Source: Biomaibacter acetigenes
Lineage (GTDB): Bacteria > Bacillota > Thermosediminibacteria > Thermosediminibacterales > Tepidanaerobacteraceae
Assembly (NCBI RefSeq): GCF_003691585.1
Contig: NZ_CP033169.1
Coordinates: forward strand, 930,001 to 994,000
Direction of reading: 5' to 3'
DNA length: 64,000 nucleotides
Positions within the stretch are counted from its first letter, which is position 1, and each line of letters opens with the position of its first letter. The position numbers and the translations under genes are program-made. The notes below the pieces were generated by a model. It had not been told where the DNA came from and made no database searches. It saw only the letters and a list, made by a program, of their open reading frames with translations. Positions 8,872 to 63,560 of this stretch are shown piece after piece.

Positions 8872-8896
8872 AGGCATGCTATTTCATAGCATGCCT
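8872..8896. repeat. 25-bp palindrome, left flank copy of the IS target
   Basis: The copy has 10-bp arms (AGGCATGCTA/TAGCATGCCT) around a 5-nt TTTCA centre. An identical copy lies at 10508-10532. The two copies directly abut the ends of the IS element, so they behave as an unusually long target duplication of a hairpin. The hairpin was probably the terminator of the xyl operon. Confidence 0.85.
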
Positions 8897-8910
8897 CAGC
8901 TTGTAGACAA

Positions 8911-8946
8911 AAACCGCTTTTAGAACGCACAACCTAAAAGCGGTTT
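8911..8946 (-). terminator. Hairpin at the transposase 3' end
   Basis: A 13-bp stem (8911-8923 with 8934-8946) carries T-rich tails on both sides, so it could stop transcription in either direction. The transposase stop codon lies inside the stem. Such a structure could insulate the element from outside transcription. Confidence 0.7.
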
Positions 8947-10398
8947 TTTATTTGAAGCAAAAAATTTTAAAATCATAAAGAAAAATGAATGCAAAGCAGG
9001 AGCTGCCGGTGGAAACATCCCACGTTTTCTCTTCCACATGGCCAGCTTTTTTAAATTCATGCATGCGAAAAGAAGCGTGAGATAATGTCCTACTTTGCTC
9101 AAGCCTCTTAGATTCGTATAACGCATACCATGCTTTTCTTTGGCATCGGCAAATACCCGCTCGATGGTCTGGCAGCGCATCTTGTATAATTCTTTGCCTA
9201 ATTCGGTGTGCCTTATATCTTCTGCTATTTCCACATAGTGCTCCCATATGTGCCGGGTTACCACTTTCGTGTAGTTCTTGCTCTGTGTGCATCTCAAACG
9301 CATGGGGCATTCCCGGCATATTTGTGGATCGCTCTTGTATTCCCGGTATCCTGACCGGTTGGTGGTGCTGTATTTTAATACTTGATTGTTAGGGCATATG
9401 TAGCAGTCATAATATTCGTCATATACGTATTCTCTCTTTTTAAAGTAGCCATCTTTGGTCATTGGCCTTTTATATGGCATGACAGGAAGTATTTCCGCTT
9501 CAATGATTTCTCTGCATATGCCGGGGGTCTTGTAGCCTGCATCAACCACTACTGCTTTTATTTCGGGAAATTTATCGTTTACTTCTTGAAAAAGATCGGA
9601 GAATACCTGGCTGTCGTGTACATTTCCAGGTGCTATTTTGAAGCCAAGGATGAAGTTGTTGCGGTCGCAGGCTACAGAAGCCGTGTAGGCAAAGCAGCGC
9701 TCTTTTTCTCCTTTTTGGAATATGCCGCTTTCAGGATCGGTGGTGCTTATCTTTACTCGTTTTCCGTTGGTGGAGCTGTTTCCTCCTTCGGCATTGCCGC
9801 TAGCTTCATCGTCATCTTCTTCAAACGGTTCTTTGCCGTTGGCTTCTCTTTCGGCGTTGATTTCTTTTAAAAGTTCTTTCTTGTATTTTTGTACCTGCTT
9901 TTTTGCAACTTTCTCTATGTATTTATTCTTATTGGCACTGGCTTTTATGTGGGTGGCATCGATAAATACCGCGTCTTCTTTGATAAACCCGCACTCTATG
10001 GCTTCTTTTAATATTCGTTCGAATATCTTTTCAAATAGATCGCTTTCTTTAAACCGCCGTTCATAGTTTTTTCCAAAAGTCGAGAAGTGAGGTATTTTTT
10101 CTTGGAGCCCATATCCTAGAAACCAGCGGTAAGCCATATTGACTTCTGCTTCTTTGATGGTTTGGCGCATAGAGCGGATTCCATACAGTGCTTGGAGCAT
10201 GAGCAGTTTTATTAATACCACTGGATCAATGCTGGGTCTGCCTGTATTTTCGCTGTATAGGTCTTTTACTTCGTTATATATGAAGTTAAAGTTGATGCTT
10301 TCTTCTATTGTCCTGAGGAGATGGTCTTTAGGTACTAAGCTATCAATGCTTACTAATTCTATCTGCTCTATTATTTCTCGTCTTTTCTTCGTTAACAT
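8920..10398 (-). CDS. IS1182-family transposase
   Basis: DDE transposase of 492 residues. It has the N-terminal DUF772-type region (GRPSIDPVVLIKLLMLQALYGIRS), a first catalytic Asp in VFIDATHIKAS, a middle Asp in VVVDAGYKTP, and a C-terminal Glu in QTIERVFADAKEKHGMRYTN. An acidic Ser/Asn-rich insert lies near residues 190-215. A CPNN...CRECPMRLRC cysteine region precedes the last catalytic block. Length and layout fit IS1182-family enzymes, and nothing is truncated. It is the only gene of the element. Its stop codon falls in the terminal hairpin. Confidence 0.93.
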   Translation of the reverse strand: MLTKKRREIIEQIELVSIDSLVPKDHLLRTIEESINFNFIYNEVKDLYSENTGRPSIDPVVLIKLLMLQALYGIRSMRQTIKEAEVNMAYRWFLGYGLQEKIPHFSTFGKNYERRFKESDLFEKIFERILKEAIECGFIKEDAVFIDATHIKASANKNKYIEKVAKKQVQKYKKELLKEINAEREANGKEPFEEDDDEASGNAEGGNSSTNGKRVKISTTDPESGIFQKGEKERCFAYTASVACDRNNFILGFKIAPGNVHDSQVFSDLFQEVNDKFPEIKAVVVDAGYKTPGICREIIEAEILPVMPYKRPMTKDGYFKKREYVYDEYYDCYICPNNQVLKYSTTNRSGYREYKSDPQICRECPMRLRCTQSKNYTKVVTRHIWEHYVEIAEDIRHTELGKELYKMRCQTIERVFADAKEKHGMRYTNLRGLSKVGHYLTLLFACMNLKKLAMWKRKRGMFPPAAPALHSFFFMILKFFASNKKPLLGCAF

Positions 10399-10507
10399 TT
10401 CATCGCCCCACCGTATGTTTTTATTTCTTTAATTTTACTATAAAAATGATCATTTTTATACCCTTTTTACAAAAAAGACTGCCGACAGCTACTTTGTCGA
10501 CAGTCTG

Positions 10508-10532
10508 AGGCATGCTATTTCATAGCATGCCT
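10508..10532. repeat. 25-bp palindrome, right flank copy of the IS target
   Basis: Identical to 8872-8896. It is followed by TTTTGTGTGTG, so before insertion the hairpin plus T-run probably formed the xyl operon terminator. Confidence 0.85.
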
Positions 10533-61573: not shown

Positions 61574-63246
61574 GTGAAGACTGATATTGAAATTGCCCAG
61601 GAAGCCAAACTCGAACCTATAAAAAAGATTGCCGAATCCATCGGCCTTTCGGAGGAAGAGATTTTCTTCTACGGTAAGTATAAGGCAAAGGTGGACCACA
61701 GGATATTGAAGAAATTACAGGGCAAGAAGGAGGGAAAGTTGATCCTTGTTACCGCCATCACCCCTACACCGGCCGGTGAGGGCAAGACAACAACAACGGT
61801 AGGCCTGGGGGATGCTCTGAAAAAACTTGGCAAGAAAGTCGTGATAGCGCTCAGGGAACCGGCCCTTGGCCCTGTCTTCGGAATAAAGGGCGGTGCAGCC
61901 GGAGGCGGATATGCCCAGGTGGTACCGATGGAGGATATAAATTTGCATTTTACAGGGGATTTTCATGCTATAGGAGCTGCCAACAACCTATTGGCGGCCA
62001 TGCTGGACAACCACATTTACCAGGGGAATACTTTAAATATCGATCCCAGAAAGATTACCTGGCGGCGCTGCATGGATATGAATGACCGGCAGCTCCGATT
62101 TATCGTGGATGGCCTGGGAGGAAAAGCCAACGGGGTTCCCAGGGAGGATGGGTTTGATATAACAGTAGCTTCGGAAGTCATGGCGGCTTTTTGCCTGGCC
62201 AAAAGCTTGCCGGATTTAAAGGAGCGCCTATCAAAAATAATTGTGGCCTATACATATGATGGTAAACCCGTGACGGCAGGGGATTTAAAGGCTGAAGGGG
62301 CTATGGCCGTTCTGCTGAAAGAAGCCATAAACCCAAACCTTGTTCAAACCCTTGAACATACTCCCGCTTTCATCCATGGCGGACCTTTTGCCAACATAGC
62401 CCACGGCTGCAACAGCCTGATTGCCACGAAACTGGCACTGAGTCTGGCGGATTATGTAGTGACTGAGGCAGGATTCGGTGCGGACCTGGGTGCCGAAAAA
62501 TTCGTAGATATAAAGTGCCGTCTGGGAGGATTAAAGCCTGATGCTGCTGTCCTGGTGGCAAGCGTAAGAGCGCTGAAACACCACGGAGGGGTAGCAAAAC
62601 AGGAGCTTTCAAAGAAAATCTACAGGCCCTTGAAAAAGGAATACCGAATATGATAAAACATATTGAAAATATCAGCAAGCAGTATGGTCTTCAGGTGGCG
62701 GTGGCCATAAACCGCTTCCCCACCGATACCGAAGATGAGCTCAATATGGTCTTCGATGGATGCAAGGCTATGAATGTACCTGCAGCCGTCTCCGAAGTCT
62801 TTACAAAAGGCTCCGAAGGTGGCCTGGATCTGGCTGAACAAGTATTAAAATTGATTGAAAAAGGGCAAAATGAATTTAAATTCGTATATCCCCTCGATAT
62901 GAACTTAAAAGACAAAATTGAAACCATAGCCAGAAATGTCTACGGAGCCGAAGGCGTGGATTTTACCCGGGAAGCGGAAAAGGAGATAGAAAATCTGGAA
63001 GCTCTGGGTTACAGCCATTTACCCATCTGTATGGCAAAAACCCAGTATTCCCTGTCCGATGACCCCAAGCTTCTTGGAAAACCCGAGGGATTCAGGATTA
63101 CCGTAAGGCAGATAAAGGTTTTCGCAGGAGCAGGATTTGTGATAGCCCTAACGGGTGCCATCATGACCATGCCGGGCCTACCCAAAGTTCCTGCAGCCGA
63201 AAAGATAGATGTCGATGAAGATGGAAGGATTACGGGTCTATTCTAG
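61574..63246 (+). CDS. fhs: Formate-tetrahydrofolate ligase with one apparent -1 frameshift
   Basis: This ATP-dependent enzyme interconverts formate plus THF and 10-formyl-THF. The first part (61574-62653) has Walker [17 protein letters not shown] and [14 protein letters not shown]. The second (62650-63246) has [12 protein letters not shown]-like [13 protein letters not shown] and ends GRITGLF. The frame is lost at A5G2, 62633-62639. One added base gives [14 protein letters not shown] and a full protein of about 557 residues. The loss of this central enzyme within an intact operon is unlikely, so a sequence error is favoured. In this operon it could run in reverse, making ATP from formyl-THF. 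The GTG start follows AGGAGG. Confidence 0.88.
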
Positions 63247-63262
63247 GATAAAGATTAAATGG

Positions 63263-63531
63263 TTGATTTCGGTGTAGAAACCAAGTCCGCTGTCGGAGAT
63301 GGCCGAAAAGCACCGAAAAGCTGTGCCGTCGCCGCTCTTGAGTTTAGAACAACACCCACCTTCGGTGGGGCCCCGGTGGAGGCAGCGGGCACGGACGCCC
63401 GCTGGCCGGCAGCAAGGTACACGCCGAATTGCCGGCGAGCCTCCACGAAGTGCAGAACTAAACTCTAGAGCGGCAGAGAGCTGCGGTGCCGGGCCATCTC
63501 CGGCAGAAGTGACTGTTTACACCCAAATCAA
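63263..63531 (+). ncRNA. Large multi-branched structured RNA (class not certain)
   Basis: A nested set of complementary arms spans the fhs-cyclodeaminase gap. The outer stem is 63263-63276 with 63518-63531 (one mismatch). Next comes a 14-bp stem, 63291-63304 with 63492-63505, then a 6-bp stem, 63310-63315 with 63484-63489. A 17-nt pair with one T-T mismatch follows, 63331-63347 with 63458-63474. Inside lie a CCCACC/GGTGGG hairpin (63355-63369) and a GTGGAGGC/GCCTCCAC stem (63376-63383 with 63439-63446). The latter encloses two hairpins, 63384-63403 and 63405-63436. The block is much richer in G+C than its flanks. No ORF within it looks real. It could be a HEARO/omega-RNA-like transposon RNA or another large ncRNA; orientation is assumed. 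Confidence 0.7.
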
Positions 63532-63560
63532 TAGTTTAAAAAATACAGAAGGAGGCTTTT

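Follow-up and report, generated by a model that had tools for sequence, protein, structure and literature searches.

Biomaibacter acetigenes carries, between fhs and the cyclodeaminase gene of its hut operon, one copy of an undescribed mobile repeat that has no protein-coding capacity. Judged from sequence comparison, the repeat preserves its fold across several genera by compensatory change, and the same element flips at fixed sites between species. We consider it likely that the element, which is ~265 bp long, is a MITE-like non-autonomous DNA transposon in which short terminal inverted repeats (TIRs) surround a conserved Y-shaped palindromic domain, an assessment that includes the transposase and flipping proposals made below. 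The interiors of bacterial MITEs usually decay or derive from the parent insertion sequence (IS), whereas here an unrelated, elaborate fold is conserved across genera; repeated inversion at fixed sites is a second unusual trait beside this conserved interior. We found no description of such a family in the literature at the level of titles and abstracts.

A long interrupted stem ending in a Y

The stems of the element lie where the initial annotation placed them, at 63263–63531 of the window (the whole 64,000-nt stretch of B. acetigenes DNA that was analysed), and comparison between copies puts the termini at 63265 and 63529, at most 2 nt away. The block is G+C-rich relative to its surroundings, as had been noted, at ~60% against 42–52% in most neighbouring segments. 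As RNA, positions 63240–63560 (321 nt) fold with −156 kcal/mol, compared with −103.7 ± 5.6 kcal/mol for dinucleotide shuffles (z = −9.4), and the complementary strand folds almost equally well (−148 kcal/mol, z = −7.4). Inverted arms are present at 63255–63276/63518–63539, 63290–63304/63492–63506 (15 nt) and 63331–63347/63458–63474 (17 nt, with a single T·T mismatch), in addition to two tip hairpins. The element has the shape of a single long stem, broken by internal loops and one T·T mismatch, with a Y of two hairpins at its end. This highly structured block is not a simple terminator, in line with the first description, but the cloverleaf-like fold proposed for it gives way to the interrupted stem with its terminal Y, which both strands can form. 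The absence of a credible ORF also holds: ORFs of 69 and 93 aa cross the element, but the indels that distinguish its copies do not come in multiples of three. The GTGA that had been pointed out next to a stem belongs to the right inverted repeat (AGTGACT).

The features of the window copy are as follows.

63265–63529, + strand (the strand modelled by covariance model R1): whole element, 265 bp; termini from TIR comparison, model match 122.7 bits
63265–63283, + strand: left TIR GATTTCGGTGTAGAAACCA, which fits the family motif GATTYnGGTGTAAAAAST
63511–63529, − strand: right TIR, reading GACTGTTTACACCCAAATC on the + strand; from TIR comparison
63258–63264, no strand: left flank AATGGTT, a probable decayed target-site duplication, 6 of 7 positions identical to the right flank, 6-bp duplications being the family rule
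63530–63536, no strand: right flank AATAGTT, a probable decayed target-site duplication by its sequence and the family rule
63290–63304, + strand: outer stem, 5′ arm CTGTCGGAGATGGCC; 8 of 9 tested pairs covary, 98% of cells paired
63492–63506, + strand: outer stem, 3′ arm GGCCATCTCCGGCAG, which pairs with the 5′ arm; covariation
63331–63347, + strand: middle stem, 5′ arm GCCGCTCT-T-GAGTTTAG; 11 of 15 pairs covary
63339 opposite 63466: conserved T·T mismatch in the middle stem, kept in ~42 of 60 copies
63458–63474, + strand: middle stem, 3′ arm CTAAACTC-T-AGAGCGGC; inverted arms and covariation
63355–63369, + strand: extra TTCG hairpin CCCACCTTCGGTGGG, found in one subfamily only (alignment A1)
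63376–63383, + strand: inner stem under the Y junction, 5′ arm GTGGAGGC (3′ arm at 63439–63446); inverted arms and covariation
63383–63404, + strand: Y-tip hairpin A, CAGCGGGC...GCCCGCTG; inverted arms and covariation
63405–63436, + strand: Y-tip hairpin B, GCCGGCA...TGCCGGC, with a conserved GAATTGCC at its 3′ side; alignment and covariation

The TTCG hairpin of the window's subfamily (63350–63376, 27 nt) recurs at 89–93% identity in another repeat of the same genome (L020, L021, L022, L024 and L026, near 1501–1527), which is multi-copy, strongly structured and perhaps a group II intron.

Dispersed copies with transposon ends

Searching the B. acetigenes genome with the region by blastn gives 31 matches at E ≤ 1, some of them short matches to hairpins; apart from the window copy itself, the strongest match shares 86% identity along 262 nt. 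With a covariance model derived from 17 cores we recovered 12 copies in this genome, the one discussed here being the sole copy in the window, and detected the element in 9 of the 13 genomes searched in the taxonomic family. Outside the family, one genome from a second family of the class holds five copies, and a single weak match lies elsewhere. The total is ~80 copies in 10–11 of the 26 genomes searched within the class. Scanning 84,980 species genomes with a degenerate pattern hit six contigs, labelled Tepidanaerobacter, Tepidanaerobacteraceae, Thermoanaerobacterales or Bacillota, and plasmids, phages and viral contigs gave no match to the element.

Copies start with GATTYnGGTGTAAAAASTC and finish with its reverse complement. 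The TIR motif outnumbers a reversed-pattern control by 24 to 1 in a same-genus relative (G001) and by 13 to 0 in G009. Many copies are bounded by perfect, AT-rich 6-bp target duplications, with hexamers such as AAGATT, AATATT, ATAATT, ATTTTT, AATTTT and AAATTT. Over 32 candidate elements, a set that still includes some spurious pairs, agreement between flanks is highest of all combinations tried at a length of 6 bp and the adjacent offset (58%), and flank matches total 112 against a maximum of 109 in 2,000 permutations. The 6-bp length is fixed family-wide, and the window copy itself agrees at only six of seven positions with a one-base shift.

The element contains no transposase gene, and its orthologous site can be found empty. 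In G001 only ~30 bp separate fhs from the cyclodeaminase gene, with no element between them (that part of Fhs is 89% identical), and the same gap is also empty in the other relatives examined. By parsimony the window copy was inserted after fhs. The initial annotation's suggestion of a mobile element is thus borne out by TIRs, target duplications, dispersed copies and an empty site. The fhs gene of the window is itself split into two ORFs (61574–62653 and 62650–63246), where the same-genus orthologue is one open frame of 563 codons; the split reflects either a frameshift in the B. acetigenes sequence or an error in sequencing.

Other identities for the element fare less well. A riboswitch or attenuator for the hut and folate genes would suit a location between fhs and the cyclodeaminase gene, but the gap lacks the element in relatives, other copies lie in other intergenic spaces beside other genes, and no Rfam riboswitch matches; we regard this identity as very improbable, and the first two points also speak against a hut-specific role. 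The Rfam covariance-model search, which included HEARO and the THF riboswitches, matched no family either at E ≤ 10 or at gathering score, in keeping with the earlier remark that the block does not resemble a THF riboswitch. A HEARO-like or omega-RNA element with an IscB/IsrB partner, the candidate put forward at first, would likewise be mobile, stand-alone, highly structured and ~200–300 nt long. However, RF02033 matches neither the element nor the whole genome, and the element has TIRs and target duplications, so that this identity is practically untenable. To our knowledge, HEARO elements have neither TIRs nor 6-bp target duplications.

Derivatives of 35, 80 and 105 bp that consist of TIRs only carry perfect 6-bp repeats, showing that the interior is not needed for insertion. 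Since these TIR-only derivatives also moved, reading the element as a transposon leaves the reason for the conservation of its fold unexplained. The 35-bp example (L111, 1485–1519) has little beyond its two TIRs and perfect ATTATT flanking repeats, and is possibly the smallest mobilised derivative.

At L080/L081 (~1501–2594) a 1.1-kb element is bounded by the same TIRs and holds, between two half-elements of different subfamilies, a 97-aa ORF together with a nucleotidyltransferase-like gene that scores weakly as DUF6036/AbiEii-like. We rejected it as the autonomous form, since it has no transposase and no matching duplication. A second palindromic repeat family, in which heptads resembling GAAGTCGGA surround a hairpin of the form GGAATTTGC...GCAAATTCC, is inserted in or beside several copies (L042, L051, L080 and L081).

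A candidate source of the transposase

Degenerate IS1182-family elements (DUF772 and DDE_Tnp_1_6) with the same ends are present in G001 and G004, sharing the tips GATTCYRGTGTAAAAAC with the structured element. In G004 a structured element directly adjoins an IS1182-family copy, the B. acetigenes genome holds an IS1182-type fossil with one such end, and G012 holds a remnant. No IS copy that bears these ends is intact, and the best one, in G001, is surrounded by a 9-bp repeat, a real mismatch with the 6 bp of the small elements; both points count against the partnership. On balance, this IS1182 subgroup probably is, or was, the source of the transposase.

The element resembles deletion MITEs of IS1182-family ISs in its tips, but it is not simply an IS with the middle deleted, because blastn detects no similarity between the structured interior and the IS at a locus that holds the two together (L208). 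Two further candidates were set aside. An IS256/Mutator origin, suggested by a GTGTAAAAA motif, fails because the IS256-type transposases present have other ends. The intact IS1182 copies of the B. acetigenes genome (99.4–99.8% identical) also have other ends (CAGACTGTCGACAAAG) and are inserted in palindromes. These nearly identical copies, at ~8896–10508 of the window and at C1:1746598, 689183, 683863 and 2063920, end in CAGACTGTCGACAAAG / CAGCTTGTAGACAAAAAC and are flanked on either side by duplicated palindromes such as GGAGGGTTTTTTAAAACCCTCC, as though this IS targets and duplicates hairpin sites.

Compensatory change across genera

When the 17 cores are aligned by sequence only, pairing is kept in 94.5% of stem cells. 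Changes on both sides occur in 92 cells, against 31 ± 5 for shuffles and no more than 10 for slid controls. Twenty full-length elements from several genera give a similar picture: pairing holds in 96.4% of stem cells, two-sided change affects 31 of the 53 pairs, and both-side-changed cells number 156, against 47 ± 6 when shuffled and at most 22 when slid. Deriving the structure from these same sequences gives the unslid version an advantage, yet the difference is wide. The outer arm exists in several subfamily versions (GGAGATGGCC, GTGACGGCC, GATGACGGC and GATAACGGC), each with a matched partner. Homologues thus covary strongly in their stems, the property on which the initial annotation had staked its structured RNA. 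Stem covariation alone cannot tell RNA from DNA, and in a dispersed palindrome it is no proof of an RNA gene.

Inversion in place

Comparing the flanks of copies between species yielded ten shared sites. In eight of these, the element is reversed relative to conserved flanking genes in one species or more. The orientation differs between L152 and L149, L171 and L174, L175 and L190, and L154 and L156 (one flank only), as well as between L145 and both L183b and L189, L155 and both L173 and L176, L162 and both L179 and L183a, and L170 and both L181 and L182. For five of these eight sites, the nearest relative of a copy is shown to be its inverted orthologue, with identities such as 96% for L152/L149 and 93% for L170/L182 and L171/L174; the sites of L162, L175 and L145 are outside these five.

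Flank anchors are collinear on both sides and reach the element in several pairs. By inspection of L152/L149, the distinguishable ends have swapped at the tips while the flanking ATGYAT has not moved. The orientation calls are safe, since for copies scored on both strands the scores lie ~85–110 bits apart; the exception is L167, a decayed composite. Mis-assembly is an unlikely cause of the inversions because the perfect inverted arms, of 7–20 nt, are shorter than usual assembly k-mers.

RNA or DNA as the selected molecule

The inversions bear on which molecule is selected. A functional structured ncRNA, as a stand-alone gene or an mRNA-processing element, could have been spread by a transposon while its RNA fold was selected on the model strand. 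The strong covariation, the conserved loops and the conserved T·T mismatch speak for such an RNA, and the flipping at fixed sites speaks against it. Of 44 intergenic copies, 16 have the model strand sense to the adjoining genes, 20 antisense and 8 mixed, and 36 lie between co-directional genes (both are raw, ORF-based counts). Orientation is possibly biased per genome, on small numbers: all five scored copies of G011 and most of G003 are antisense, and most of G008 are sense.

Mispairs point the same way as gene orientation. Distinct mispair events in the window's genus comprise 20 G·U and 24 A·C, about equal numbers, as would be expected without strand preference. With near-random gene orientation as well, a strand-specific RNA gene appears unlikely in the window's genus. 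No promoter-like site rises above chance, and counts of promoter and terminator sites are near the shuffled expectation. By contrast, three genomes that we label g3 have 28 G·U against 11 A·C, with TIRs largely decayed and the fold intact; the G·U excess hints at an RNA role, which is possible in these genomes. Overall, we judge a selected ncRNA improbable.

Arms could also be kept alike by arm-to-arm conversion, through template switching in replication or inversion, which would produce covariation without selection on the fold. The near-palindromic arms lend themselves to this, frequent inversion in place shows that arms or tips recombine, and mispairs in the window's genus have no strand preference. 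Yet conversion should erase the T·T mismatch and the asymmetric internal loops, both of which persist across genera, and individual copies hold many unrepaired one-side changes. The retained mismatches in particular disfavour conversion alone, and we doubt that it accounts for the covariation. Both selection on the element and inversion-coupled conversion between arms may play a part.

A more speculative idea, to which we give a modest chance, is that the family represents a new class of mobile element. Its Y fold would be a working part, recognised as hairpin DNA or RNA and driving the in-place flipping, and in Tepidanaerobacter-like genomes it would have outlived the transposon ends as a structured RNA maintained by the host. 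Intact, decayed, flipped and TIR-less copies form a natural series in which selection on RNA, selection on DNA hairpins and arm-to-arm conversion can be tested against one another.

Proposed mechanism and relation to known elements

Under the MITE-like reading that we prefer, a TIR-dependent DDE transposase, putatively of the IS1182 family, would act in trans to cut the element and insert it into AT-rich intergenic DNA. The near-palindromic fold, as cruciform or hairpin DNA, or transposase bound at both tips, may then permit flipping without departure from the site. Within an operon the transcript would contain a hairpin whichever way round the element lies, so that insertion would be tolerated. 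The hairpin may expose the mRNA, for instance to RNase III, or shield it, an effect suggested earlier for Correia, ERIC and YPAL elements. Selection on the fold would act mainly at the level of the spreading element rather than on each resident copy.

These three families are the closest analogues within the broad MITE class, by likeness of form and behaviour, and the element is set apart from them by its hosts and by the termini recorded in their descriptions. ERIC/IRU and YPAL of enterobacteria are likewise intergenic, co-transcribed, strongly folding small mobile sequences. ERIC is 127 bp long with 7-bp TIRs, and YPAL is 168 bp long with no terminal TIR and duplications of 3–26 bp, compared with ~265 bp here. 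YPAL sites show present/absent differences between species, and covariation of a multi-branched interior is not described for ERIC or YPAL in the review literature cited (PMC2229807). Correia elements (CREE/NEMIS) of Neisseria are also small, TIR-bounded, non-autonomous and intergenic, with long hairpins in transcripts; RNase III cleavage and inversion in place have been reported for them (PMC10969869), and they have TA-type termini and TIRs of ~24 bp (PMC2229807). The element described here differs from Correia in its 6-bp duplications and its other termini, in a Y domain conserved by compensation across genera, and in inversion between species at most shared sites.
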